Assembly (NCBI GenBank): GCA_024275165.1 | Contig: JAJRZQ010000035.1 | Coordinates: 1 to 32,092, forward strand | Direction: 5' to 3' | Length of the DNA stretch: 32,092 nucleotides | Source: a bacterium | GTDB taxonomy: Bacteria; SAR324; XYD2-FULL-50-16 | Shown here: positions 125 through 14,439 of the stretch, one piece after another | Layout: each line of letters begins with the position of its first letter | Position numbering within the stretch: the first letter of the stretch is position 1 | Notes under the pieces: generated by a model | Databases searched by the model: none | The model's input: only the letters and a program-made list of their open reading frames with translations | Told to the model about the DNA's origin: nothing | Program-made: the position numbers and the translations under genes

Positions 125-1345
125 TTACCTTAAGGGAATTTGCATCCTTAAGGTGAACTCTTGGGGTTGAGTATAACTTGCCTCCATCTTGCCTCCGTGA
201 GAGAAAATAATGTAGCGCGCGATATTCAACCCCAGCCCCTTGCCTTTTGCGCCTCCCACATTGCTGCCACGAAAAAAGGGATCAAACAAATGCTCGACTT
301 CTTCTTCCTTTAAAGGCTGGGCCGTGTTGGAAAAGATCAGGGTTATCCCCTTGCCCTGTCGCGCTCCCCAAATCTGGATTTTTCCTCCTTCAGGGGTGTA
401 CTTCACCGCGTTCGACATGACATTCAGCAGCACCCGGTGAATCAACACCTCATCCAGCTCGCCGAGAAGGTTTTTGGGGCAATGTTGGACCAAGACAATC
501 CTCTTTTCTTGAATCAAGACCTCAAAATCAGCCACAACCTCAGTGATCATCGCGCTGAGATCGACTTCTTCACATTGTAAGGATAAGGGAGTGAAATTGG
601 AACTGGCAATTAATTGCAAATCCTGCAAAAGGGTAATGATTCGGTTGGATTCCAACAAACCCAAGTGCAGAATATCTTGATATTCCTCAATACTTCGTTC
701 CCTGCGCAACCCGACTTCTAAATTGCCCTTTAGACTGGTCAAGGGACTATGCAGTTCGTGGGTTACATTCGAAGAGAAGTTTTCTTGATACCGAAAGGCT
801 AGAGTAATGGGCCGCATAGCCAAATTCACCAGCCAACTGGAGATTAAATAACTTAAAAAAATCACGGCCGGAAGACTGATCATCACCAGGAAACGAAAAT
901 TTTCCTCATATTGACTCAGTTGTAAAATGGGCTCGGCAATGAGCCCCGCGTGCGCTTGCGAAATCGGAATATACAAAACCAAGTGTAAAACTCCCTCCAC
1001 CTCCAGAGATTCAAAATTGGATTGACCCAAAAAAGCGGCCCGCAACAATACTGGGTTGGGAGAAAAATTAAAGTTCTGGCTATTGACCGTCTGTACGATC
1101 AAGCTCCCCGAAGAGTCATAGATCCGCATCACCTCATCTTCGTCAACCTGAGCAAACTCAGCCAGAGAATGCTCGTTGTAATACTCTACCAATTCATTTT
1201 GCCCGTCTTTGCTTAAAGCTTGCTTTAGCCCCTGCAAAATCGACTGATGCAAATAGTAATAGCTGACTAAAAGAATCAACAAATTAATTCCAAAAACCGC
1301 GATGGAAAAAAGCAGCGTTAACCGATTTTTGGTATGACGAATCAT
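125..1345 (-). CDS. Membrane sensor histidine kinase next to SHP/DHC cytochromes
   Basis: A 406-residue two-component sensor kinase. A hydrophobic segment at about residues 10-35 and a second at about 150-172 flank a periplasmic loop of about 115 residues that probably senses the signal. The HisKA phospho-acceptor motif VTHELHSPLTSLKG lies near residue 195. The ATP-binding domain follows, with an N-box (LLNVMSNAVKYTPEGG) and a G-box (GKGLGLNIARYI). I recognise no HAMP or PAS domain. The ATG overlaps the stop of the upstream diheme cytochrome gene in an ATGA junction, so the two are almost certainly co-translated. Kinases are known neighbours of SHP/DHC cytochromes in other bacteria, and this one may respond to the same redox or oxygen signal. 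No cognate response regulator is adjacent inside the window; one could lie to the left of base 1. Confidence 0.9.
   Translation of the reverse strand: MIRHTKNRLTLLFSIAVFGINLLILLVSYYYLHQSILQGLKQALSKDGQNELVEYYNEHSLAEFAQVDEDEVMRIYDSSGSLIVQTVNSQNFNFSPNPVLLRAAFLGQSNFESLEVEGVLHLVLYIPISQAHAGLIAEPILQLSQYEENFRFLVMISLPAVIFLSYLISSWLVNLAMRPITLAFRYQENFSSNVTHELHSPLTSLKGNLEVGLRRERSIEEYQDILHLGLLESNRIITLLQDLQLIASSNFTPLSLQCEEVDLSAMITEVVADFEVLIQEKRIVLVQHCPKNLLGELDEVLIHRVLLNVMSNAVKYTPEGGKIQIWGARQGKGITLIFSNTAQPLKEEEVEHLFDPFFRGSNVGGAKGKGLGLNIARYIIFSHGGKMEASYTQPQEFTLRMQIPLR
127..154 (-). other. Perfect 9-bp stem-loop across the end of the histidine kinase gene
   Basis: ACCTTAAGG at 127-135 and CCTTAAGGT at 146-154 form a perfect inverted repeat around a 10-base loop. 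It covers the last codons and part of the stop codon of the kinase gene. No U-tract follows directly on the minus strand; the nearest A/T-rich run is about 25 bases further on. A 3' mRNA-stabilising stem is more likely than a classical intrinsic terminator. The remaining bases 1-124 are A/T-rich with no gene I can support. Confidence 0.4.
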
Positions 1346-1905
1346 CGAGGAATTTGAATATACTTTTCATCGTAGATTCCTCGTTTTGCCGTAGTATGAC
1401 AAGCCGAGCAGTTTGCCCAGGAACGAATGCTTTTGCGCGCCAGTACGCGAGTCCCAACCTCTCTATGTTCGTGCTTAAAAAAGGGAATATCCGAAATCCG
1501 CAAAGGCGTTGCCCCCTCTAGGCTGCGCAAAATTCGCTTTGAAAAGCGAGCCGAAGAATTTTCAGCGGAATTGGCGTATAAATATTCTTGAATGGCACTA
1601 GCGTGTTCCGAACTGAGCGACGCGTCTTCTTCAAAATGCTGATCAAGCCCATCCATGATTTTTTCCCAAGAGGCTTTCGGCAGCAAACCCGCCTGATAGG
1701 CGAAATGGCACGCGCCACACTCTTGTTGGTACAGCGGGTCAACCGCGGGGCTCAAATGCTTTGAATAGCCGTGTCTTAGATTAGAGTGCCATTCATGGTC
1801 TTCCCCCTCGTCGTCATCACTGTCACTAAAGGCGATGAAGGGGAGCAATAAAATAAGCGAAAGGCTCAATGCGAGCAATAGCGTTTTAGACAATGATTTT
1901 TTCAT
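1342..1905 (-). CDS. DHC-type periplasmic diheme cytochrome c
   Basis: A secreted c-type cytochrome of 187 residues resembling the DHC (diheme cytochrome c) family. A signal peptide (MKKSLSKTLLLALSLSL...) is followed by an acidic, His-rich segment (DSDDDEGEDHEW). There are two CxxCH haem sites: CGACH in the first half and CSACH close to the C terminus. The spacing and the motif GLLPKASWEKIM are typical of DHC. I chose the ATG at 1905 because AGGTGA sits about 7 bases upstream; the GTG at 1917 would start on top of that ribosome-binding sequence. In Rhodobacter-type systems DHC passes electrons between a membrane cytochrome b561 and the SHP cytochrome. The SHP gene lies immediately upstream here, but no b561 gene is visible. 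Confidence 0.87.
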   Translation of the reverse strand: MKKSLSKTLLLALSLSLILLLPFIAFSDSDDDEGEDHEWHSNLRHGYSKHLSPAVDPLYQQECGACHFAYQAGLLPKASWEKIMDGLDQHFEEDASLSSEHASAIQEYLYANSAENSSARFSKRILRSLEGATPLRISDIPFFKHEHREVGTRVLARKSIRSWANCSACHTTAKRGIYDEKYIQIPR

Positions 1906-1917
1906 ATAATTTTTCAC

Positions 1918-2352
1918 CTATAGGGAAAAAGCCCAAATCAGAAAATCTCCTTTTTCTTTCGCCGTACATTCTCTTTCCAATACCCACTTGCAGTTTCTCT
2001 TAAACCACTTATTTATCTTGCTCTTTTTGACAAATCGCTTTCGATTCGCCGAAGGCGCCAAGGGTTGAATAACTTTCCCCGTCCGCTCGTGCCGCCCTGT
2101 GCTGGTTGGTTTCTTATGGCAAGTCTGACAGGAACGGTTCTTTTTTTTCCTCGAGTGCATGAATTCTTTTTGGAACAAGTCCTGCCCTTTTTGCACGGAA
2201 AAATACTGAAAAGAAGGATCCTCTTTTTTAGCCTCTACTTTTAAATTATTCAGGTAAGCCATCGCTACCGGGGTTAATTTTGTCTTTGCGAATAAAGGGA
2301 TCACAAGAGGGGTTAAAAAAAATAAGGCGATTAGAATAAGGCAATGTTTCAT
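1918..2352 (-). CDS. SHP-type monoheme cytochrome c (DUF1924)
   Basis: A small periplasmic cytochrome of 144 residues similar to SHP, the high-potential monoheme cytochrome that binds O2/NO in its reduced form. A signal peptide (MKHCLILIALFFLTPLVI) is followed by one haem site, CQTCH. The family block comes next: TGRHERTGKVIQPLAPSANRKRF, then KINKWFKRNCKWVLERECTAKEKGD. The two cysteines in that block (NCKWVLEREC) are the pair that forms a disulphide in SHP, and the Asn in APSAN sits where the distal haem ligand is expected. The start is set at 2352, where AGGA precedes ATG by five bases. An upstream in-frame start would add a charged, non-signal leader. First gene of the shp-dhc-kinase operon. 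Confidence 0.85.
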   Translation of the reverse strand: MKHCLILIALFFLTPLVIPLFAKTKLTPVAMAYLNNLKVEAKKEDPSFQYFSVQKGQDLFQKEFMHSRKKKNRSCQTCHKKPTSTGRHERTGKVIQPLAPSANRKRFVKKSKINKWFKRNCKWVLERECTAKEKGDFLIWAFSL

Positions 2353-2413
2353 GTTGGTCCTACGATTTAACAAACATTTTTTTTCATGCCCCCTCACTTG
2401 ATCCAGCCAAAGC

Positions 2414-2434
2414 CTTTGACTAGATGAATCAAAG
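2414..2434. promoter_or_regulatory. Inverted repeat in the shp upstream region
   Basis: CTTTGA and TCAAAG form a 6-bp inverted repeat separated by nine bases, about 60-80 bases upstream of the SHP start codon. It could be an operator or a leader hairpin. The rest of the 2353-2519 spacer is A/T-rich; I could not settle on a convincing -35/-10 pair. Confidence 0.25.
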
Positions 2435-2542
2435 ACTAACCCTGAATTATGAATTTACAATGAAGGGAATATTAAATTGATTTCATGGAAAAGAAAAAAT
2501 AATCGAATCCCCAAAAGCTTTAATTGAGCAAATCGGGATTGT

Positions 2543-3262
2543 CTAAAAGCTTAGTGAACTCCCTGCCTGTTTCAACTTTAGCCTCTGCAATAGCGTCAAC
2601 CAGTTTTTCCAGTTCGCTTTTGGATAGATCACAGGCTTTTTGTTCGATTTGATTGGCGTAAAAGGCAATTTTTTTGCCCCCACATTCACCGCTAACCCTT
2701 TTAAACTATGGGCTACCTCTTTTAAGGCTTGGCAATCTTCTTCTAAAGATTGAGTCAGGTTTTCTAAGTGTTTGGGCAACATCTGGTGATAGATCGCAAT
2801 CAATTGTTCCACCAGTTCGTCATCCAAAAGGTGTCGAGAACGAAGCAAGGCGTAGTCAACCAGTTCCTCATCGTGAAAAAAGACAGGAGAACTTTGCGCC
2901 TCTAAGAGATGTCTCCACATTCTCAAGGATTCATCTAAGTGGTCAATACCCATAAAGGGGTCAACAGACGCGTCAAAGCCGATTTGATGCCAATTCGTCC
3001 AAGTGGGTTCGTTCAAGGAAGGGGTATTTAGAATCCACAGAGGGGGGCAAGGGCCTTGCTTGGGAAAGGGAAAGCAAACCGGGTTTGAATCCTGGGGGCT
3101 ATAAATAAAAACATCAAAATCCCCTTGCTCTAACAGGGTTTTGGTGGTGACCTCCTCTTCAACCCGTTGGTAAGGGTGACCCAAAAAGCGAGTCCAGGCA
3201 GTTAAATCTTGCCCAAAGCCGCCATCCCAGTGAAGAATTTTTAATGAAGAAGCCTTATCCAA
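2543..3262 (-). CDS. Pseudo-receiver plus HPt protein, frame disrupted at a poly-A run
   Basis: The open frame gives 239 residues from a TTG at 3262. Residues 7-120 look like a degenerate CheY-type receiver: LKILHWDGG and a DVFIYSPQ strand where the phospho-Asp should be, then a GFDASVDPF segment in place of the GaxdyxxKP motif. The acidic and Lys active-site residues are missing. Residues about 145-198 are an HPt domain with the phospho-accepting His185 in VAHSLKGLAVNVGAKK. After Lys198 the frame leaves the HPt family pattern. The -1 frame from the A7 run at 2669-2675 restores a convincing HPt C-terminal helix (IAFYANQIEQ...SELEKLVDAIAEAK) and ends at 2520, giving 247 residues. It lies beside several kinases and receivers, fitting a phosphorelay intermediate. 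The start is uncertain: there is no ATG, and a second poly-A run lies just upstream. Confidence 0.72.
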   Translation of the reverse strand: MDKASSLKILHWDGGFGQDLTAWTRFLGHPYQRVEEEVTTKTLLEQGDFDVFIYSPQDSNPVCFPFPKQGPCPPLWILNTPSLNEPTWTNWHQIGFDASVDPFMGIDHLDESLRMWRHLLEAQSSPVFFHDEELVDYALLRSRHLLDDELVEQLIAIYHQMLPKHLENLTQSLEEDCQALKEVAHSLKGLAVNVGAKKLPFTPIKSNKKPVIYPKANWKNWLTLLQRLKLKQAGSSLSF

Positions 3263-3263
3263 T

Positions 3264-3386
3264 TCAGTTTTTTTTTGCGTTGAAGCCTGCGTAAAAGACT
3301 CCCAGGGTATTTAAAAGGCAGCTCGCGAGCCCCAAAAACCCTGCAGCTTTTGCTTGATGAAATCTTTGCTTAGATTTTTTAAGCAT
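3264..3386 (-). CDS. Possible 40-residue membrane peptide, or the lost N terminus of the HPt protein
   Basis: An ATG-started frame encodes a basic start (MLKKSKQRFHQAKAAG), one hydrophobic segment (FLGLASCLLNTLGVFYAGF) and the end NAKKN. Its TGA lies one base before the TTG start of the pseudo-receiver/HPt gene. A weak GAAG ribosome-binding sequence precedes the ATG. The end falls in a run of nine A's (3268-3276). Removing one A would join this peptide in frame to the HPt protein, giving it a membrane anchor. It may be an independent small protein, part of a frameshifted larger gene, or chance. The remaining 3387-3502 spacer shows no gene. Confidence 0.3.
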   Translation of the reverse strand: MLKKSKQRFHQAKAAGFLGLASCLLNTLGVFYAGFNAKKN

Positions 3387-3502: not shown

Positions 3503-4654
3503 ATGATCACCGCTCAAGAATTAAAAAATCAATGTCATGGGCTAAGCGTATTGTATGTTGAGGATGATGATGACATTCGCAGTTATACCGTCAATCTATT
3601 AGAAAACTTCTTCACCCGCATTGAAGTCGCTGAAAACGGCGCTATAGGCTGGGAAAAATTCCAATCCCATTCCTTTGACTTTGTCATCACCGATATCCGT
3701 ATGCCGGAAATGGATGGCATCGAACTCAGCCAGCTCATCAAAAAGAAAAACTTCAATTTCCCCATTTTAGTGATCTCCGCCCATGATGAGGCCCAATACC
3801 TTACAGAACTGATCAATATCGGGGTGGCTAACTTTTTGGCCAAGCCCTTAGACATCCAGCAATTTTTATCCATCCTCCATCGCCTTGTTTCCAGAATTCA
3901 ACTGGAAAAGGAAAAAGAAGCCCTGGTGCAAGAAAGGGAGAAATACACCCTCATGCTGCAAAAGTTAAACCAAGACAAAGACCTCTTTTTTTCGATTATC
4001 TCCCATGACTTAAAAAGCCCCTTTAACGGGATTTTAGGTTTAACCGAGCTTCTCGCCAGTCCTGACTTTAGCCCTCCCCCCGATGAAGCGCGACTCATCG
4101 CCGCGGAAATCAATAACGCTTCTAAAAAATATTACCAATTGCTGCTCAATTTGCTGGACTGGTCCAGGCTGCAAAGGGGGAAGATGGAATACCGACCCGA
4201 GGTGGTCAACCTCAACAGCTTAGTCACCCTGGTCATCGGCCAATTGAGTCAATTCGCGCGGCAAAAAGAAATCACCTTGCAAAATCAAACCGAGCAAAAC
4301 TTGTTGCTGAAAATAGACAAGGAAATGACCCGCACCGCAATCCACAACCTCTTATCCAACGCGATCAAGTATAGTACCAGGGGAGGGCGAGTGAGCATCT
4401 CCACCTCCATCACCCCGGAAAATTGGGTCGAGCTGGAGGTCAAAGACTTTGGGGTGGGAATGAGCGCCAAAGACGCCAGCAAACTGTTTCAGATTGAGCA
4501 TAAAAACAGCACCCCCGGCACCGAAGATGAAATGGGCACCGGTCTAGGCCTGCACCTCTGCAAAGAGATGGTGGAAAAGCAGGGGGGGAAAATTCGCGCT
4601 GAGAGCGTTTTAGGGCAAGGTTCCAGCTTTTTTATCTCCTTTATGCAGGTTTAA
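3503..4654 (+). CDS. REC-histidine kinase hybrid (soluble)
   Basis: A 383-residue cytoplasmic protein. The N-terminal receiver (about residues 14-130) has an intact acidic pocket (VEDDDD), phospho-Asp in FVITDIRMPEMDG, the Ser of ISAHDE and the Lys of LAKPLD. A short coiled coil (QLEKEKEALVQEREKYTLMLQKLNQ) leads to HisKA with the phospho-His in IISHDLKSPFNG. The HATPase domain has an N-box (HNLLSNAIKYSTRGG) and G-box (GTGLGLHLCKEMVEKQGG). With no membrane or input domain, it probably takes its signal as phosphate on its own receiver. The receiver closely resembles that of the convergent HD-GYP protein (shared SAHDEA.YL and KPLDI). It converges on that gene, and the two stop codons share the bases TTAA at 4651-4654. 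No strong Shine-Dalgarno is visible. Confidence 0.92.
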   Translation: MITAQELKNQCHGLSVLYVEDDDDIRSYTVNLLENFFTRIEVAENGAIGWEKFQSHSFDFVITDIRMPEMDGIELSQLIKKKNFNFPILVISAHDEAQYLTELINIGVANFLAKPLDIQQFLSILHRLVSRIQLEKEKEALVQEREKYTLMLQKLNQDKDLFFSIISHDLKSPFNGILGLTELLASPDFSPPPDEARLIAAEINNASKKYYQLLLNLLDWSRLQRGKMEYRPEVVNLNSLVTLVIGQLSQFARQKEITLQNQTEQNLLLKIDKEMTRTAIHNLLSNAIKYSTRGGRVSISTSITPENWVELEVKDFGVGMSAKDASKLFQIEHKNSTPGTEDEMGTGLGLHLCKEMVEKQGGKIRAESVLGQGSSFFISFMQV

Positions 4655-5757
4655 AGCGGATCTTGATGATTTAGATAAATTTGGTGCAGTTCCTCGGCGC
4701 AATCTAAAAAACATTCCCAAACCTGCGGGTCGAAATGCCCCGGCTCGGTACGGCCATCCCCCTCTCGAATAATCCGCACGACTTCTTGGTGCGGCAGAGC
4801 CTTCTTGTAAGGGCGTTTCATCAAAAGAGCGTCATAGATGTCGCAAATCTGGGTCACTCGCGCTTCCAAGGGGATCGCCTTACCGCCAATCCCCTCGGGA
4901 TACCCCTGCCCATCCCATTTTTCATGATGAGAGCGGGCGATTTTCTCCGCCATTTGAATGGCTGGATCCCCAGACCCCCGTAAAATATTGGCCCCCTTTT
5001 GGGCATGGCTGGCCATTACCTCCCACTCTTCTGGGGTATGCCGACTTGGCTTATGCAAAATCGCGTCGGTAATCCCGATCTTGCCGATATCATGCAAGGG
5101 GGCGGCAAAGAGCAAAAGATCACAGAACTCCTGTTTCAGCCCCATTTTCCCCCCCAGTTTTTGGGCGTAAAGACCGATCCTTCGGATATGCTTGCCCGTA
5201 TCATTATCCTTGTACTCGGCCGCGGTGCAGAGTTTTTCCACCAACTCCCGACGATTGCGACCTAAGGCCTCTAAAGCGAGGTTGAGGTCTTGGGTGCGCA
5301 ATAAAACCTGTTCTTCTAAACTTTTTTTATAATTTCTTTCTATTTCAACAAGTTCTAAAAAATGAATTGTTTTTTCCACGACCTGGAGCAACTTTTCAAT
5401 ATCTAAGGGTTTGACAATAAAATTATCAATCCCCATATCAATCAAATCTAATAAATAAGGGGCTTCGTCATGAGCGGAGGTAATCAGCACAACCTGCTCC
5501 GGGTTTTTCCGCTTGATCTCACGCACCATTTCCAAGCCGTTCATCACAGGCATGTTGAGGTCGCTGATCACAATATCCCAATCCCTTTGCTTAAATTTTT
5601 CCAATCCCTCTTTCCCGTTCACGGCGGTGACCACCGTGGCAAAAAAGGTGGAAAAAAGGTTGGCCGTGCTTTCGCGCAGGGCATCGTCGTCTTCTACAAA
5701 AAGAACATTGAATTTCTTGGAGCGCTCGATGAGCGATTTCAGTTGGTTTACTTGCAT
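4651..5757 (-). CDS. Response regulator with HD-GYP domain (c-di-GMP phosphodiesterase)
   Basis: A receiver (first ~125 residues) with VEDDDA, phospho-Asp in IVISDLNMPVMNG, TSAHDE and VKPLDI, then a coiled-coil linker, then an HD-GYP domain. HD-GYP signatures are visible: the HD dyad in APLHDIGKIG, downstream HAQKG, SHHEKWDGQGYPEG, and ICDIYDALLMKRPYK. HD-GYP enzymes hydrolyse cyclic di-GMP, and phosphorylation of the receiver normally sets activity. I start at the ATG at 5757 because GAGGA precedes it; the in-frame TTG at 5769 lacks a ribosome-binding site. It follows the sensor kinase gene by 12 bases, so that kinase is the obvious phosphodonor. Confidence 0.93.
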   Translation of the reverse strand: MQVNQLKSLIERSKKFNVLFVEDDDALRESTANLFSTFFATVVTAVNGKEGLEKFKQRDWDIVISDLNMPVMNGLEMVREIKRKNPEQVVLITSAHDEAPYLLDLIDMGIDNFIVKPLDIEKLLQVVEKTIHFLELVEIERNYKKSLEEQVLLRTQDLNLALEALGRNRRELVEKLCTAAEYKDNDTGKHIRRIGLYAQKLGGKMGLKQEFCDLLLFAAPLHDIGKIGITDAILHKPSRHTPEEWEVMASHAQKGANILRGSGDPAIQMAEKIARSHHEKWDGQGYPEGIGGKAIPLEARVTQICDIYDALLMKRPYKKALPHQEVVRIIREGDGRTEPGHFDPQVWECFLDCAEELHQIYLNHQDPL

Positions 5758-5769
5758 TGTCCTCGTCAA

Positions 5770-7503
5770 TTAAATTGGCTCCGCCATATTCAAGGGAAGG
5801 GAGATGCGAAACTGCGCCCCTTCTGTTGTGTTTTTAACGGTTAAACTACCTTTACAATGCTGTTCCACAATGGTTTTAGCCATGTAAAGGCCGAGCCCGG
5901 TCCCCCGGTTGGCGTGCTTGGTGGTAAAATAAGCGTCGAAAATCTTTCCCATGACCTCGTCGGATATCCCGCCCCCGTTATCACTGATTGAAATATAAAC
6001 CCCCTGCTCCGCTTCCCCGCCAGAGAGAATGATTTTCGGCTTGGAGACTTTCTTTTCATCCAAGGCATCCCGGGCATTGGTTAAAATATTTAAGCAAACC
6101 TGCATCAATTCATTTGGATAAGTCACAATACTTTGCTTATAGGCGTAGTTTTGCACCAACTGAATGGATTGTGTTTCTAGGCTTTTCCCAATCAAGCCAA
6201 CTACTTGATCCAGCAACCGGGCCAAAACCACTTTTTCTTGCTTTTTCTTTGGGTTGAAAAAATCACGGAAATCATTGATGGTCCTGGAGAGGAATTGGGC
6301 ATGCTCATTGATCGCCGACAAACAATGATCTAATTTTTCCGGGGAGGGATCGCCTAAAGAAAGCTGTACCTTTAAACCGCCTGCCAAGGTGCTGATCGTG
6401 GAGAGGGGCTGACGCCATTGGTGAGCGATCATCGAGAGCATCTCCCCCATACTGGCGAGTTTCGATTGTTGGATCAATAGTTTTTCTTGCTCCAAGCGGC
6501 GTTGAACCTCCTGCTTTACTCGTTGTTCCAGCGTTTGATTGAGTTCGGTGAGTTCTAGGGTTCGTTTGGCGACCCTCGCCTCCAATCCTTCTTTGGCGAA
6601 CTGGAGTTCCGCCTCGGTTTTCAGCCTTGCTTCGTTCTCCGCTTCTAAATCAGCGGTCCTCAAAGACACCTGAGACTTCAGCACCAAGCTCACCCCTAAA
6701 AAAAAGAGCACCAGCACCCCAAAAAACCCTAAGAGCAAAAAAACGGAGCTTTGATCCTGATTGCGCATTTCTCCATATTGTTGCTCCAAGGCCATGTTGT
6801 ATTTACTCGCCTTGTTGGCCTGTTCTTTGAGTAAATGTTTTTCCAGGGTTTGGAGCAGGCTCGGCTCTTGCCAACGGGGGATGGCGATATCTAGGGAGGT
6901 CGGGGCAATCGCCAGAGAGTGAACCTGCAACATCAAGCCCTCCAATCGCTCGGGATCAAATAACCGCGAGATGATCGCCGCGTCCGCCTTCCTTTGAACG
7001 ACCCGATTTAAAGCTTCCTCTTCGGTTTGCGCCACGAAGACCTGAGGAGGGGTCAGAAAATTTTTGGATTGGTTGATGAACTCAATTAAAAAAAAATCGT
7101 TTTGCACTCCAACGATCTTTTTCCCCTCAAGGTCAACCAGGCTTTTCAAGGCCTTGCTGGGGCGAGTTAAGACCTGCCCCCAGTTGGTGATGAAATGAGT
7201 CTTGGGAAAATCAAATTCTTTCGCCAATTTGCTCGAATAGGGAATATCAATCGCCAGGTCCAGGCGCTTTTCCCGCAGGCCTTGCAGCGTGCTGGGCAAA
7301 TCACCTTCGATAAAGCGCAGTTGCCAGCCCTCTTTCTTTGCCAGGTCATTTAAAAAATCAATGAAAATGCCCCGGAAATCGCCTTGGTGATTGACAAAGG
7401 CCAAGGGCCTCAAACTGACAACCCCAACCCTGTAAATGCGCGGCCCTACATCCGCAAAGAGAGACAAGGGAAAAAGGATAAAAAGTAAAGCCAGCAAACG
7501 CAT
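5770..7503 (-). CDS. Sensor histidine kinase with periplasmic solute-binding (SBP_bac_3) domain
   Basis: About 577 residues. A signal/anchor sequence (MRLLALLFILFPLSLFADVG) precedes a bacterial family-3 solute-binding domain: VGVVSLRPLAFVNHQG, FIDFLNDLAKKEGW, KRLDLAIDI, and EEALNRVVQRKADAAI. A membrane segment (SSVFLLLGFFGVLVLFFLGVS) follows near the middle, then a long coiled coil, HisKA with MIAHQWRQPLS, and HATPase with LNILTNARDAL, DNGGGIS and GTGLGLYMAKTIVEQ. No REC domain is attached; the receiver is supplied by the HD-GYP protein just downstream. The open frame extends upstream into rlmH, but I use the ATG at 7503, where AAGG lies four bases upstream and a proper signal sequence begins. 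The gene starts 71 bases after rlmH in the same direction and may share its transcript. Confidence 0.9.
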   Translation of the reverse strand: MRLLALLFILFPLSLFADVGPRIYRVGVVSLRPLAFVNHQGDFRGIFIDFLNDLAKKEGWQLRFIEGDLPSTLQGLREKRLDLAIDIPYSSKLAKEFDFPKTHFITNWGQVLTRPSKALKSLVDLEGKKIVGVQNDFFLIEFINQSKNFLTPPQVFVAQTEEEALNRVVQRKADAAIISRLFDPERLEGLMLQVHSLAIAPTSLDIAIPRWQEPSLLQTLEKHLLKEQANKASKYNMALEQQYGEMRNQDQSSVFLLLGFFGVLVLFFLGVSLVLKSQVSLRTADLEAENEARLKTEAELQFAKEGLEARVAKRTLELTELNQTLEQRVKQEVQRRLEQEKLLIQQSKLASMGEMLSMIAHQWRQPLSTISTLAGGLKVQLSLGDPSPEKLDHCLSAINEHAQFLSRTINDFRDFFNPKKKQEKVVLARLLDQVVGLIGKSLETQSIQLVQNYAYKQSIVTYPNELMQVCLNILTNARDALDEKKVSKPKIILSGGEAEQGVYISISDNGGGISDEVMGKIFDAYFTTKHANRGTGLGLYMAKTIVEQHCKGSLTVKNTTEGAQFRISLPLNMAEPI

Positions 7504-7574
7504 CATACCTTTTGGTGAAGACGCTTTAAGAATAGCCGATAATCCGTATTGGGAAAAGCCCGCCAAGCTTTTTT

Positions 7575-8039
7575 TTAAGGATGATGATACTTCTCCCCCT
7601 TCAACAGAGTCATAGCGCGATAAAGTTGCTCCACCAAACTCAGTCGAATCAGTTGATGAGGAAAGGTCAATTGAGAAATCGACCATACCCAGTTCGCCCT
7701 GGCCGCAACCCGCTCATCCACCCCATAGGCCCCTCCGACGATAAAACCAAATTGACTGTGCCCCTGATTCATCCACTTTTGAAAACTCTGGGATAAGCCG
7801 ACACTGGTGGTTTGTTTTCCCCTTTCATCGAGCAAAACCCAAAAACAACCTTCGTCCATTTTCGCCAGTATCCGCTCGCTCTCTTGGGTTTTCCCCGCGA
7901 CAGGGGCGAGGGCCTTGGCTCCTTTGACCTCTAAGAGGGTCACCTTCGCGTAATGCCGGAGGCGATTTCGATAATGCTCTACCCCCTGATGAACCCAAAA
8001 GTCTTTGGTTTTGGAAACAAAGAGCAGTTTAATTTCCAT
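7575..8039 (-). CDS. rlmH: 23S rRNA (pseudouridine-1915-N3)-methyltransferase
   Basis: RlmH, 154 residues, matching the usual length of about 155. It is a SPOUT-class enzyme that uses S-adenosylmethionine to methylate pseudouridine 1915 in helix 69 of 23S rRNA. Diagnostic stretches are the N-terminal MEIKLLFVSKTKD, the cofactor loop FIVGGAYGVDE, LTFPHQLIRLSLVEQLYRA, and the C-terminal EKYHHP. The true start is the ATG at 8039, which overlaps the end of rsfS by 11 bases; the longer frame to 8117 is only rsfS read out of frame. The nadD-rsfS-rlmH order is common in bacteria. Confidence 0.96.
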   Translation of the reverse strand: MEIKLLFVSKTKDFWVHQGVEHYRNRLRHYAKVTLLEVKGAKALAPVAGKTQESERILAKMDEGCFWVLLDERGKQTTSVGLSQSFQKWMNQGHSQFGFIVGGAYGVDERVAARANWVWSISQLTFPHQLIRLSLVEQLYRAMTLLKGEKYHHP

Positions 8040-8373
8040 CCCGATGGACCCGCTCCGTCTCGAAGAGGTCTTCAATTTGAATCTCCTCTCGGCGCTGAGG
8101 GGTAAAAAGGTGTACAATCACCTCGTTATAATCCATCAAAAGCCAATCCCCTTGAGTAACCCCTTCTACCCCTAAAGGCTGTTGCCCTTGCTTTTTCAGG
8201 TCAAAATGCACCTTATCGGCCATCCCTTTTAAATGGGTGCTGCTCGTGCCGGTGGCGATAACCAAGAAATCGGTCAGGCTCGACTTCTCTCCCACCTCCA
8301 TAGAGATTAAATCTTCCGCTTTCGTGCTCTCTAAGGATTGGATAATTTCTTGTACTAACTGTTCTGCCTTCAT
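8029..8373 (-). CDS. rsfS: Ribosomal silencing factor RsfS
   Basis: RsfS/Iojap family, about 114 residues. It binds ribosomal protein uL14 and blocks joining of the 50S and 30S subunits when nutrients are scarce. Family motifs: AEDLISMEVGEKSSLTDFLVIATGTSSTHLKGMAD, GVEGVTQGDWLLMDYNEVIVHLFTPQRRE, and FETERVH near the end. Two starts are possible. The ATG at 8373 (MKAEQLVQEI) gives the typical family N terminus and is chosen; the ATG at 8391 would add six residues (MGDEPG). It sits between nadD and rlmH and overlaps the rlmH start. Confidence 0.94.
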   Translation of the reverse strand: MKAEQLVQEIIQSLESTKAEDLISMEVGEKSSLTDFLVIATGTSSTHLKGMADKVHFDLKKQGQQPLGVEGVTQGDWLLMDYNEVIVHLFTPQRREEIQIEDLFETERVHRDGN

Positions 8374-8425
8374 GCCCGGTTCGTCTCCCATTAAAATGAC
8401 TTTAAAAATCTTTGGTCCAGCTCTT

Positions 8426-8444
8426 CAGGGTTCCATCAACCCTG
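8426..8444. other. Stem-loop in the nadD-rsfS spacer
   Basis: CAGGGTT and AACCCTG pair around a five-base loop (7-bp perfect stem). On the plus strand it is followed by TTTTG, so the terminator-like orientation is against the direction of the flanking genes. Confidence 0.35.
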
Positions 8445-8483
8445 TTTTGAGTTTGGCGAATCAGCGAGGCCGCCTGCCCCGCG

Positions 8484-8506
8484 GCAGAGGCTTTAGGAAC
8501 CTCTGC
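8484..8506. other. Second stem-loop in the nadD-rsfS spacer
   Basis: GCAGAGG and CCTCTGC pair around a nine-base loop (7-bp perfect stem). Bases GTTTTT follow on the plus strand. It lies about 40 bases from the other hairpin and just after the nadD stop. Read on the minus strand there is no U-tract, so it probably acts as an mRNA processing or stability element, or as a terminator of antisense transcripts. Confidence 0.35.
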
Positions 8507-8523
8507 GTTTTTCAGAGTTTCCC

Positions 8524-9114
8524 TTACTCTTTTTGGGCTTCCTTCAGCCATAACTTGGCCGCTTTCGGGTGCAGGCGTGAAGCGAGTTTGCGCTCGCTCA
8601 AAGATTGGGTGCGGATCTCCGTTGAAGAAACCTCGGGGATTTCCACCTCCACCCAATGCACCTTTTTTGCCTCTTTGAGGCTCAATTGCGGGCGGCTGCT
8701 CGCGTTACTTTTCCCCTTTCTATTAAAAACCAAGATCTCGGCAAGCTCGAAAATACGGGCTTTGTTCTTCCAATAGGGGAACTGGGCAAAACTGTCTTCC
8801 CCTAAAATCAGGTAAAGCCGATCTTGCGGGTATAAGGCGCTTATTTCCTCTAAAGTTTGATAGCTGTAGCTCAAGCCTCCCCGCTGCAATTCGCATAAAG
8901 AAACCTCGACCTCGGAAAGCTCTCCAAAAGTTGCCTGTAAAAGCCGCGCCCTCAATGAGCCAGACAGTTGAGGGTGATTTTCTTTCAAAGGGTTATGGGC
9001 TGCGGGAATCACCATCACTCGGTCCACAAGACGCAATTTCAACAATTGATGAACGATCTCAAAATGCCCTAAGTGAACCGGGTTGAAACTACCGCCAAAA
9101 ATACCGATCCGCAT
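8524..9114 (-). CDS. nadD: Nicotinate-nucleotide adenylyltransferase
   Basis: NadD, 196 residues, joins nicotinate mononucleotide and ATP to form deamido-NAD in NAD biosynthesis. It begins with the nucleotidyltransferase signature MRIGIFGGSFNPVHLGH, continues with MVIPAAHNPLK and LILGEDSFAQFPYW, and has the late VSSTEIR motif of the family (ISSTxIR). Length and start are standard. It heads the minus-strand nadD-rsfS-rlmH group. Its upstream spacer is shared with the divergent PilZ-like gene. Confidence 0.96.
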   Translation of the reverse strand: MRIGIFGGSFNPVHLGHFEIVHQLLKLRLVDRVMVIPAAHNPLKENHPQLSGSLRARLLQATFGELSEVEVSLCELQRGGLSYSYQTLEEISALYPQDRLYLILGEDSFAQFPYWKNKARIFELAEILVFNRKGKSNASSRPQLSLKEAKKVHWVEVEIPEVSSTEIRTQSLSERKLASRLHPKAAKLWLKEAQKE

Positions 9115-9160
9115 AAGTTTTTTTCTTTTTTTACCTTTGGTGCTATCCTTGCTTTAACAG

Positions 9161-9192
9161 CCTTGCTCATCGACCGAGCAAGGGTTATAGAT
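9161..9192. promoter_or_regulatory. Hairpin and possible promoter in the divergent nadD / PilZ-like spacer
   Basis: CCTTGCTC (9161-9168) and GAGCAAGG (9176-9183) form a perfect 8-bp inverted repeat. TTGCTC (9163-9168) followed 18 bases later by TATAGA (9187-9192) would be a modest sigma-70 promoter for the plus-strand gene at 9255, with the inverted repeat sitting on it like an operator. Nothing else is recognisable in 9115-9254. Confidence 0.3.
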
Positions 9193-9254
9193 AATCTTAG
9201 CACGGTTCGCGATACAGCATCTATCTAAATTTTACCCTCTACCATTGTAGGGCT

Positions 9255-10388
9255 ATGAATCTACTTCTTTTGCTCTCCCAGCAAGCCTTGGCCGTCAATT
9301 ACGAGATCAAGGGCGGTTTTTTCGCCCATGAAGAGGCCTTTGACCCCACTGTCCTCTATTATACCATCGGGGGGATTCTTCTCTTAACCGTCCTGTTTAA
9401 AATCCGTTCCTTCCTCCGCACCATCACCCTGCGCAAAGAATTGCGCCATTATCACAAAAAAAAGGCGGAAGCAAAGATGTCGGCGATGAATGTCTCGGAT
9501 GTCACGGCTCAGGGCTTGGATAAACTAGCTGCTTTTGCCGATGTCGAACCCGACCAACTCTTAGCGGATAACATTCTCTTTGAAAAGGCGGCAAGCGAAT
9601 ACGCAAAAAAACACTCCGAAAGCGATTTAATCAAAAAATTTCGCCATATGCGTGAAGAATTAGATTTCGTCTTCATCAATCCAAAGGCAAAATTCCTCAA
9701 TACCAATATGATGGAAAAGGGGCAAAAGCTCCGGGTGTACCTTGAGGCTCATGGGGAATCGCGCCCTTTTTTGAGTCAGGTACTGCGCTCTTCGGAAAAA
9801 CAACTTTGGGTTTCCCCCCCCAAAATAAAAAACAAGACCATCAACCTCTCTAAGTTGAGGCGGGTCCGGATTCGAGTTTACCGGAACGGAGACGGGGAAT
9901 ATGAGTTCATCATGCCCCTACGGGCGCAAATCCGCAAACCGATTTCTGCGCTTATTTTAGATCAGGTGAGTCAATTACAGCCTCTAGACGCGGCTCCCAT
10001 GGAAAAGGTGCGGGTTAATTATCAAAACAAATTCGTTTTCTTAGTCCCCCTCGACCAAGATGACCCCTTTTTAACCAAATATACCAGCATGCCGGTACAG
10101 GGCACCCTGACCTCGCTTTCGACCAATCAGATCCGCATGGTTTCGACCAGCTTGCCTGATTTGGTTGTCTTGGGGACCTATCTCCTCTTTAAATTCAAGG
10201 AAGCGGGAATCAATGAACGGATCAAGGGACGGGTGGTTAAGGTTGATCAAGATGCCAAATACTATTACACCAATATTCAAATTGTTGAAATGAGTGAAAA
10301 AGGCCGCCTGCAATTGGAAAACTTTATGCATACTCACCAACGGACGCCCAAAGCCAAACCCAAGCCGCCTGTCGCCCCTAAGATATAG
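9255..10388 (+). CDS. Membrane-anchored YcgR/PilZ-like protein (degenerate c-di-GMP motifs)
   Basis: 377 residues. One membrane segment (residues ~33-50, TVLYYTIGGILLLTVLF) is followed by a basic, helical stretch. A YcgR-N-like beta domain comes next (about 150-255: EKGQKLRVYLEAHGESRPF, IRVYRNGDGEYEFIMPLRAQI), then a C-terminal PilZ-like domain (about 260-355: MEKVRVNYQNKFVFLV, GTLTSLSTNQIRMVS, GTYLLFKF, GRVVKVDQ). The two-domain order matches c-di-GMP effectors of the YcgR/PlzA kind. The usual PilZ RxxxR and D/NxSxxG motifs are not intact: KVRVNY and SLSTNQ occupy those places. c-di-GMP binding is therefore uncertain. The next gene starts 11 bases downstream, so the two form an operon. Confidence 0.7.
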   Translation: MNLLLLLSQQALAVNYEIKGGFFAHEEAFDPTVLYYTIGGILLLTVLFKIRSFLRTITLRKELRHYHKKKAEAKMSAMNVSDVTAQGLDKLAAFADVEPDQLLADNILFEKAASEYAKKHSESDLIKKFRHMREELDFVFINPKAKFLNTNMMEKGQKLRVYLEAHGESRPFLSQVLRSSEKQLWVSPPKIKNKTINLSKLRRVRIRVYRNGDGEYEFIMPLRAQIRKPISALILDQVSQLQPLDAAPMEKVRVNYQNKFVFLVPLDQDDPFLTKYTSMPVQGTLTSLSTNQIRMVSTSLPDLVVLGTYLLFKFKEAGINERIKGRVVKVDQDAKYYYTNIQIVEMSEKGRLQLENFMHTHQRTPKAKPKPPVAPKI

Positions 10389-10399
10389 CTAGGAATATG

Positions 10400-11833
10400 A
10401 TGAAATCAATGAACTTTTTTGCGATATTCTTTCTCTTTTCCCTCCCCGTGATCGGGCTGGCGGCGGAAACGACCACTCCGCAAACCAAGGTTTCCAGCCC
10501 TCCTCCAGAGGCTCAAGCAGCAAAGACGACCCCCATCGAATCAGGTCAAAACACCTCTGCCTTGGTGGAAGGGAAAATTTTCCGCCACCTTGAGGCGGCC
10601 TTTGCCCAACGCGATTTGGTGGAATTTGAAAAGGTGATGGCTTATTATCGGCAAAGCTTTCCCCAAAGCCCACGCAAGGGAGAAATCGAGCAACTACGCC
10701 AAAAATTCTATTATCAAGAGCAATTGCCCAGCTACCTTTTAAAAGATGGTTTTGTGCGCCTGCAATACCCTCAAGCCAAATCCCTAGAAGAACTGAGTGA
10801 ATATTTTAAAACCCTGAAAGAACTAAATATTTCCACCGTAATCCTTGCGGCCTCGCAAACAAAGGGAACCCCGGTCTACCTCTTTGCCCATCGGGATAAA
10901 ACGGTGGGGTACTACTTTGCGGTCAAAAACGGCCCCATGATTGAAAACCTATTCGACCGAATCATCGCCATCGCCCATGAGCAAAAACTAAAGGTTCATG
11001 TTGCCTTGCCCGTGCGCGACCTTCCGGGGTTGAGCAGCTACAGCGACTTTATTTTAGATGAATCCTGGAACTTTTTACAAAATGAAACCAAAATAACGCA
11101 GAAGCTCGACCTCTTTCACCCTCTAGGCAAGGCTTACCTTTACGCTCTGGTGGATGATATATTGAATTTGGATATTGACGGGGTTTTACTCTGCGCGGAC
11201 TATGCCTATCAACAACAAGAGGGATTTTCCGCTTTTGACCGCAAACTCTTTATCGAAGATACGGGCCTAGACCTCCACTTCGATCAATTGTTCGCCACCA
11301 GAAAAAGCAGAGGTCGATTCGGCGTCTTAACCAGAGAGGAATTTCACGACATCGCCCTATGGCGCACCCGGGAGTTGACCCAATCCCTGTGGGAATTGAT
11401 CGCCCACCTGCGACAAAGCCAAAGAAAGCTTTCCATCGGTATCGAGGTCTACCCCGGCATGCTCTCAGAAGAAGAAAGAGCCATGCGCAACTACTCAATG
11501 AACCTAAGCCACCTCAAAGACTTAGAAGTCGATTATTTTTACCTCGCCTGGAAAGGCCAAGGCAGAGTGGGAGCCCAAGAAAAGCAAGACTACAAAAAGG
11601 CGGCGCAAAAACTGAGAACCCATATAGCGCCGCATAAAACCTTAGTCGTGACGGTTCCCTTAAACGAGTCCAACAAAAACTTGGTCTTTTTGAATCAAGC
11701 CTTACAACAACAAGCCACCTTTAAGCAAGAAAGCTCCAAGGTGGAAATCGCGATTGGCCCCATCAACCGCTACCAAGGCCTCGACTTTGTGCAATACCCC
11801 CGCTTGACCGCTCCGGTTAAAGAAGCGAATTAA
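10400..11833 (+). CDS. Secreted PgaB C-terminal-domain-like glycoside hydrolase
   Basis: 477 residues. A signal peptide (MKSMNFFAIFFLFSLPVIGLAAE) and a Thr/Pro/Gln-rich linker precede a small helical region and then a (beta/alpha)8-type domain. The domain resembles the C-terminal hydrolase domain of PgaB (GHL13-like): SLEELSEYFKTLKELNISTVIL, LFDRIIAIAHEQKLKVHVALPV, DGVLLCADYAYQQ, LSIGIEVYPGMLSEE, VDYFYLAWKG. In PgaB this domain binds and cleaves poly-beta-1,6-N-acetylglucosamine. The N-terminal deacetylase domain of PgaB is absent, and the catalytic acids are not clear to me. ATG 10400 is preferred over 10397 because AGGA lies five bases before it. Paired with the PilZ-like gene, suggesting polysaccharide export or turnover. 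Confidence 0.65.
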   Translation: MKSMNFFAIFFLFSLPVIGLAAETTTPQTKVSSPPPEAQAAKTTPIESGQNTSALVEGKIFRHLEAAFAQRDLVEFEKVMAYYRQSFPQSPRKGEIEQLRQKFYYQEQLPSYLLKDGFVRLQYPQAKSLEELSEYFKTLKELNISTVILAASQTKGTPVYLFAHRDKTVGYYFAVKNGPMIENLFDRIIAIAHEQKLKVHVALPVRDLPGLSSYSDFILDESWNFLQNETKITQKLDLFHPLGKAYLYALVDDILNLDIDGVLLCADYAYQQQEGFSAFDRKLFIEDTGLDLHFDQLFATRKSRGRFGVLTREEFHDIALWRTRELTQSLWELIAHLRQSQRKLSIGIEVYPGMLSEEERAMRNYSMNLSHLKDLEVDYFYLAWKGQGRVGAQEKQDYKKAAQKLRTHIAPHKTLVVTVPLNESNKNLVFLNQALQQQATFKQESSKVEIAIGPINRYQGLDFVQYPRLTAPVKEAN

Positions 11834-11848
11834 ACCCTTATTTTAGGC

Positions 11849-13060
11849 CTACACCAGGGTATTGAGCTCAAACATGGGCAACATGACGGCTAAAACGATA
11901 AATCCCACCATCAAAGCCATCAAGACAATCAAGAGGGGTTCGAGCAGAGCAACGGCCTTTTGCACCTGATCCTTGACCTCTTTTTCCATGTTTTTGGCGA
12001 TTTGCTCCAACATTTCTTCTAAGTGACTTGTTTCCTCCCCAACTCGAATCATTTGCAGCACGCTGGGAGAAAAAAGCCCTGTTTTGCGCAAAGCCTGGGA
12101 AATATCCAAGCCCTTTTGGGTGATATCTTGGATAATCTGCCCGAATTTTTCTTCATAAACTCGGCTCCCCGTGACTTGAGCGACGATTCCAAAGGCCTCT
12201 TTGACCTCCACCCCGCTAGCCATCAGAGTGGCTAAGGTTTGCGTAAAACGATAGTTGTAGATTTGGGTCAAGGTGACTTTGATGACCGGAACCCTTAAAA
12301 TCAATTGATCAAAGCGAAGCCGCCCCCCGTCGCTGCGCAGGTATTGCCTCCCCCCTAAAAACAACAAGACCCCGCCGAGCAAAAAAGCCCACCAGCCGCT
12401 TGTTAGGATACCGCTGCAAAAAATCACGATTTGGGTGGGCAGGGGCAAGGCTAAATCAAACTGCTGAAAAAGGGGAATGATTTTCGGCAAAATAAAAGTC
12501 ATCATAAAAACCACAATCCCCAACCCCATAACGCTCATGACAATCGGATAGATCAGCGCGGCTTGCAGTTTGTTTTTCAATTCTTGGGATTCTTCCAAAT
12601 ACTCGGCGAGCTTGGTCAAGACCTTCGGCAGGCTGCCGCCCGCTTCCCCGGCCTTGACCATGGCAAGGTACATGAGCGAAAACTGCCGTTCAAAAGGGGC
12701 TAGGGCTTGGGCAAAAGTGCCGCCTTCTTCGACCTTGGCTTTAATCTCACTTAAGACCTGTAAAAAATCAGGGTCTTTGTTTTCAGAAATCAAAATGTCC
12801 AAGGCGCGGTCATAGGGAATGGAAGTGGACTGCAAGAGCGCGAACTGGCGGGTAAAATCAGCGATTCCCTTAGCAGAGAGGCTGACTTTGCTCTTTTTCC
12901 CCTTCAAGCCGCTGGATTTTTCTTGATGCGCCTTCACGGCGAGGATAATCAACCCCTGCCCCTGCAGACTTTGCTTGGCCAGCTTGAGGTTGGAGGCATC
13001 GAGCCGCCCCTTGACTTTTTTCCCCTCCCGATCAACCGCTTGATAATCGAAAAGAGCCAC
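11849..13060 (-). CDS. gspF: Type II secretion / type IV pilus inner-membrane platform protein (GspF/PilC)
   Basis: 403 residues of the GspF/PilC family, the cytoplasmic-membrane platform that couples the assembly ATPase to pseudopilin or pilin polymerisation. The N terminus (MALFDYQAVDREGKKVKGRLDA) and two homologous T2SSF repeats (about residues 70-195 and 270-395) are complete. Family motifs: FTRQFALLQSTSIPYDRALDIL, MVKAGEAGGSLPKVLTKLAEYLEES, IYNYRFTQTLATLMASGVEV and MIRVGEETSHLEEMLEQIA. There are three membrane segments. The GTG start sits directly against a GGGGGGAG purine run and lies 8 bases after hemN. No ATPase, pseudopilin or secretin gene is nearby, so type II secretion versus type IV pilus cannot be decided here. 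Confidence 0.92.
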   Translation of the reverse strand: MALFDYQAVDREGKKVKGRLDASNLKLAKQSLQGQGLIILAVKAHQEKSSGLKGKKSKVSLSAKGIADFTRQFALLQSTSIPYDRALDILISENKDPDFLQVLSEIKAKVEEGGTFAQALAPFERQFSLMYLAMVKAGEAGGSLPKVLTKLAEYLEESQELKNKLQAALIYPIVMSVMGLGIVVFMMTFILPKIIPLFQQFDLALPLPTQIVIFCSGILTSGWWAFLLGGVLLFLGGRQYLRSDGGRLRFDQLILRVPVIKVTLTQIYNYRFTQTLATLMASGVEVKEAFGIVAQVTGSRVYEEKFGQIIQDITQKGLDISQALRKTGLFSPSVLQMIRVGEETSHLEEMLEQIAKNMEKEVKDQVQKAVALLEPLLIVLMALMVGFIVLAVMLPMFELNTLV

Positions 13061-13068
13061 CTCCCCCC

Positions 13069-14439
13069 TTAAATGGTTTTGGAGAACTGGGCCTTGGCGC
13101 CCTTTTCCCCCTTTAAGTACGCGTCAAAGACCATGCAGATGTTGCGAATGAGAATCTTACCGGGGTCTAAAATCAAGATGTGATCCCCGTGAACCTCCAA
13201 CAAACCATCGGCGACCATTTCTTTTAAACCGGCAAGCTCTTCTTTAAAGTAGTCTTTAAAATCCTGACCAAACTCGGTGGTGAATTCGGCAAAGCTTACA
13301 TAAAAATGGCAGATCAGCCGGATAATCGTCCATTTGCGAATGCGATCCTCCTCAGAGAGCTTGATTCCCCTCGCCCCGGAAAGCCCCAGCATATTGACCT
13401 TGCGCATATAGGTATTGATATCTTTTTCATTCTGCACAAAAAAGTTTTCCGTTTCCCCAATGCTGGTGATCCCGATACCAAAGAGGTCCACCCCGGATTT
13501 GGGTGAATAGCCCATGAAGTTGCGGTACAGGCGGCGTTCCTTTTGGGCTAAGGCAAGCTCATCGGTGGCCAAGGCAAAGTGATCCATGCCGATGTATTCA
13601 TAACCTGCCTCGGTAAAAAGCTTAATGGCTCGAAAAAAAATATCGACCTTTTCTTTTTCACCCGGCAAGTCGGCTTCTTTGATCCCCTTTTGGTGGGGGA
13701 GGAGTTTCGGCAAATAGGCAAAATTATACAAAGCCAAGCGGTCTGGCCGCATCTCAATAACACGATGAATCGTTTTGGTAAAGCTTTCCAAGGTTTGATG
13801 CGGCAAGCCGTAAATCAAATCGAAATTGACCCCCGTAAAGCCTAAGGCCTTTGCCTGCACAAGGTGATCATAGGTGATCTCTTCGGATTGAATGCGGTTG
13901 ACCGCCTCTTGCACCTTGGGGTCAAAATCCTGCAAGCCTAAGCTGATGCGGTTAAAGCCAAGCTTAGCCAGATGTTTTAATTGGCCGGGTCGAGTAAAAC
14001 TGGGGTCCACCTCAATGGCGATTTCCGCGTTTTCCTCAAAGGGAAACAGTTCCCTTACCTTGCCTAAAATCAAATCGAAGTCTTCATTGAGCAAATAGGT
14101 CGGGGTGCCGCCGCCAAAGTGCATTTGCCGTAGGGGCCGCCCCTTGATCCCCTGTTTGGCTAGGGCTTCCAACTCCTTTAAAAGGTATTCCACATAGGCG
14201 GAAACCTTGTCCTGACTCCGAGTGAGCATGGTGTTGCAACCGCAATAAGAGCAACGCTCTTCACAAAAGGGAATATGAAAATATAAAGAAATGGGCCGTT
14301 GACTGTCTTTTGCGCTTCCATACCAATCGAGTTGATCTCGCACCTTGATCTCCACCCAATTGGGCGCCGTGGGATAACTGGTGTAGCGAGGGCCGCTGGT
14401 GGCGTATTTTTCGATTAGATCATCCGAAAGCTTTTCCAT
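13069..14439 (-). CDS. hemN: Oxygen-independent coproporphyrinogen III oxidase
   Basis: HemN, about 456 residues, a radical SAM enzyme that decarboxylates coproporphyrinogen III to protoporphyrinogen IX without O2. The iron-sulphur signature CEERCSYCGCN follows FHIPF, as in true HemN rather than HemW. Other family motifs: GPRYTSYPTAPNW at the N terminus, HFGGGTPTYL, FNRISLGLQDFDPKVQEAVNRIQ, YGLPHQTLESF, and IGMDHFALATDELA. The ATG at 14439 has AAGGA six bases upstream; the longer frame to 14484 has no such site. Haem supply fits the c-type cytochromes elsewhere in the window. gspF follows after 8 bases. Confidence 0.95.
   Translation of the reverse strand: MEKLSDDLIEKYATSGPRYTSYPTAPNWVEIKVRDQLDWYGSAKDSQRPISLYFHIPFCEERCSYCGCNTMLTRSQDKVSAYVEYLLKELEALAKQGIKGRPLRQMHFGGGTPTYLLNEDFDLILGKVRELFPFEENAEIAIEVDPSFTRPGQLKHLAKLGFNRISLGLQDFDPKVQEAVNRIQSEEITYDHLVQAKALGFTGVNFDLIYGLPHQTLESFTKTIHRVIEMRPDRLALYNFAYLPKLLPHQKGIKEADLPGEKEKVDIFFRAIKLFTEAGYEYIGMDHFALATDELALAQKERRLYRNFMGYSPKSGVDLFGIGITSIGETENFFVQNEKDINTYMRKVNMLGLSGARGIKLSEEDRIRKWTIIRLICHFYVSFAEFTTEFGQDFKDYFKEELAGLKEMVADGLLEVHGDHILILDPGKILIRNICMVFDAYLKGEKGAKAQFSKTI

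Follow-up and report, generated by a model that had tools for sequence, protein, structure and literature searches.

Does a gene whose reading frame changes at a run of seven A's encode two forms of a phosphotransfer protein, switch itself on and off, or carry a lesion? The question is raised by a receiver-like-HPt gene in the window, the whole 32,092-nucleotide stretch of DNA analysed here, for which an earlier note had put forward all three readings. The window is the entire contig 27 of a metagenome-assembled genome of 2.69 Mb (47 contigs, 98% complete). The features at the break are as follows.

2543 to 3262, minus strand: 0-frame open reading frame of 239 amino acids with a TTG start at 3262, comprising a degenerate receiver-like half and a truncated HPt domain
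2669 to 2675, minus strand: A7 run, the site of the -1 change of coding frame according to the sequence, the frame HMM and the coding log-odds
2520 to 2668, minus strand: -1 frame tail of 49 codons and a TAA, completing the HPt domain

The T7 on the plus strand at 2669-2675 is the A7 run of the coding strand. The 0 frame reads GCA AAA AAA TTG across it and reaches its stop at 2543, 41 residues past the run; the -1 frame continues after the run for 49 residues (IAFYANQ...DNPDLLN) and ends with a TAA at 2522-2520. In the unshifted ORF, the Pfam Hpt profile was matched with 31 bits over positions 1-48 of 84, and when the frames were joined at the run the match rose to 45.5 bits (E 9.4e-12) over positions 1-80, against the PF01627 cut-off of 24.6 bits. 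A codon-statistics HMM that uses no homology (a periodic coding model of fourth order whose training set was 263 long ORFs from the source genome) placed the frame change at about 2664, a few bases from the run, and the coding log-odds over 2668-2543 favoured the -1 frame (+11.4) over the 0 frame (-8.9). The three analyses agree that the A7 run splits the HPt gene into two frames, as first noticed from the letters, and that the assembled sequence does contain the frame break. The 49-residue extension ending at 2520 also held up, but it forms the end of the helical bundle and a tail, and is not necessarily the single continuous helix that had been described.

The phospho-acceptor motif H-x-x-K-G is present as HSLKG, and His185 is invariant in alignments A1 and A2. 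Truncation leaves the protein this His but removes the second part of the HPt bundle, and the 0-frame product should therefore not work in phosphotransfer. The -1 tail contains no further stop or other lesion; since it is still coding-like and HPt-like, the break is probably young. We also considered a second lesion at the A9 run at 3268-3276, which would fuse an upstream ATG ORF (3386-3264, minus strand, 40 amino acids) to the gene. This was rejected because the ORF scores as non-coding (-2.2) and is missing from the orthologues, which begin where the TTG at 3262 would place the start; the 40-residue ORF is probably a chance occurrence.

To place the break in its evolutionary context, we turned to related genomes, a comparison that the earlier note had proposed. 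The nearest compared genomes belong to the same family, and two of them are Candidatus Lambdaproteobacteria (G002 and G004). A single-sequence search of the genome contigs gave no match; an alignment-based search of them recovered both Lambdaproteobacteria orthologues along with distant HPt proteins, and a search of viral contigs gave no match. Both orthologues (L006 in G002 and L008 in G004) are syntenic and consist of one open frame each, of 250 and 246 amino acids. The alignment across the break is gap-free, with GAKK|IAFYANQIEQ in the window against GAKR|MSEIIGQIER and GAAS|LTQLTEQIDR. The slippery run is absent from the break site in both (GCCAAAAGG and GCCGCCAGT), where the DNA reads GCCAAAAGGATG in G002 and GCCGCCAGTTTA in G004, so the run was not inherited. 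Since two syntenic orthologues keep single gap-free frames without the run, the unbroken gene is the ancestral state and the break a singleton among the compared genomes, which supports the lesion reading.

The receiver-like-HPt protein of the window is 31 and 27% identical to the two orthologues, which are 39% identical to each other; for the neighbouring SHP protein the corresponding values are 42 and 49 against 55. The low identity of the receiver-like-HPt protein would fit relaxed constraint, but the hint is weak because an outgroup position of the window lineage might by itself explain it. In the receiver half, the usual phospho-acceptor Asp is apparently missing in the window and in G002, and may be retained in G004 (VILDPTLPG).

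Programmed -1 ribosomal frameshifting or transcriptional slippage, which would give a short and a full-length protein, finds a correctly phased slippery heptamer at the frame change (GC A_AAA_AAA TTG), and a 7-A cassette from another gene reached 10% in E. coli (PMC3711429). However, the A7 run is ordinary for the source genome. In the 432 kb of it sampled for motif and frame statistics, 110 A7 runs lie within 225 intact ORFs of at least 250 amino acids, and 57 of these 225 ORFs contain the heptamer in phase. Folding of the 59 nt that follow the run is no stronger than that of shuffled sequences (z +1.2), and the first stable downstream helix begins about 31 nt past the run, whereas stimulatory structures generally begin 5-8 nt downstream of a slippery site (PMC4066793). 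No SD-like stimulator was found at the proper spacing: the only match ends 2 nt from the second base of the motif, against the 6-17 nt required (PMC4066793). That strong hairpins and SD stimulators are lacking here had already been remarked from the sequence, and the folding and spacing results bear this out. Heptamers without stimulators reach at most 10 times a background of 0.055% in E. coli. The slippery site is also not conserved, both family-level orthologues being single-frame genes without the run. Some -1 leak is possible, and nothing suggests programming; since the motif is unconserved, has no stimulators and recurs in many intact genes, we consider the proposal of a programmed two-form protein improbable.

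Phase variation is hardly better placed. It would have A7/A8 run-length switching turn the HPt protein off and on, and the run does lie within a regulator gene whose frames are otherwise intact. Yet A7 is short and as common in intact ORFs as the above counts show, the orthologues lack the run, and the source genome encodes both mutS and mutL for mismatch repair; we regard such switching as unlikely. Loss of mismatch repair was likewise considered and, given the two genes, rejected. A related proposal, in which unassisted slippage or run-length switching at the A7 run would supply full-length HPt protein at a low, regulated dose, next to a truncated receiver-like form serving as a decoy, seems to us very doubtful.

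An assembly or base-calling error would mean that the cell carries eight A's and an intact gene of 247 residues. The intact orthologues, the -1 tail free of other lesions and the exact coincidence of the break with a homopolymer would all fit such an error, and the authors of GeneTack expect a singleton frameshift that BLASTp validates to be a sequencing error and not a genuine indel (PMC3711429). We examined how often frames break in the 432 kb. The HMM, which recovered 80 of 93 planted one-base indels (each at least 150 nt from the gene end), called 97 direct frame switches, almost all being ordinary gene junctions, in which a start lies close to the stop. No start was nearby at four of them (leuC-leuD, the HPt gene, L030 and L038), and at the leuC-leuD switch an ATG is present further on. 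This leaves three breaks for which no plausible restart exists, and two of the three coincide with homopolymers, the A7 of the HPt gene and a C9. The latter (L030, about 4035 on the plus strand of G000:C16) lies at the frame change of a homocysteine S-methyltransferase-like gene; apart from it and the A7, the sample has no homopolymer break. At L038 (17283-18877, plus strand, G000:C41), the coding frames overlap by 64 nt, and the junction has neither a start codon nor a homopolymer; it is an unexplained case of a frameshifted or unusually started gene, whose family is unassigned.

Against these two homopolymer breaks stand 373 runs of at least 7 bases inside intact long ORFs, a break rate of about one per two hundred runs, so errors are not a general feature of the assembly. 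In the window itself, 33 runs of at least 7 bases hold their frame in 27 other genes. Both the observation that other genes stay in frame across such runs and the argument drawn from it against general base-calling error are thus upheld. Breaks this rare are what a normal load of recent mutations could produce, and they give no sign of a poor assembly; the record fits neither base-calling error nor recoding on a pervasive scale. Their rarity across the 432 kb cannot, however, clear the A7 site itself of error, and a local assembly error would look identical to a real loss. An error confined to this site is the main competitor, and we hold it tentatively to be somewhat less likely than a real contraction.

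We assign a probability of about 0.5 to a recent one-base contraction, a real mutation, in a conserved receiver-like-HPt gene. One A would have been lost from the homopolymer run in the window lineage, breaking the frame, and the resulting 0-frame product would be a truncated HPt protein inactive in phosphotransfer. Full-length protein would then come only from unassisted -1 slippage at A_AAA_AAA and make up no more than a small basal fraction. While the frame break, the ancestral intact frame and the unconserved slippery site are shown, we infer that the cell truly lacks the base, that it was lost recently and that the protein made is inactive. The proper annotation of the gene is a frameshifted one and not one with two forms. 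What looked like a recoding signal dissolves when it is set against the frequency of the motif, the orthologues and the homopolymer record of the genome.

The gene is followed by three conserved genes.

1918 to 2397, minus strand: SHP-type cytochrome c (DUF1924), the conserved next gene
1342 to 1917, minus strand: dihaem cytochrome c (DHC), the conserved next gene
125 to 1345, minus strand: sensor histidine kinase, the conserved fourth gene of the module

All three genomes share the gene order, with nadD-rsfS-rlmH upstream and then the HPt gene, SHP, DHC and the sensor kinase. The four-gene module occupies 125-3262 (minus strand) in the window, 7264-10430 at L044 and 10502-13578 at L045. Between rlmH and the HPt gene, the window additionally carries a REC-kinase, a REC-HD-GYP and an SBP-kinase gene (3503-7686) that are not in G002 or G004. 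SHP-DHC operons carrying a sensor kinase and a response regulator have been described (PMC2909971). The window resembles them in that the SHP and DHC genes adjoin a sensor kinase and a regulator-like protein; it differs in that its regulator-like gene encodes a receiver-like-HPt protein, and the modules of the relatives differ in continuing with more multihaem cytochromes and a cytochrome b-like protein.

With dnaX-type and IS-type programmed -1 frameshifting, the window shares an in-phase A_AAA_AAA. Unlike those systems, its site has neither stimulators nor conservation, and the break cuts through one functional domain instead of offering a choice of two whole products. The closest likeness is to the GeneTack class 'H-pseudo / Error' (PMC3711429), a transition present in one genome, confirmed by homology and a Pfam domain, with intact homologues. 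The HPt gene shows no notable difference from that class: its homologues are intact, and its break is confirmed by both homology and the Pfam domain, as in a singleton frameshifted gene.
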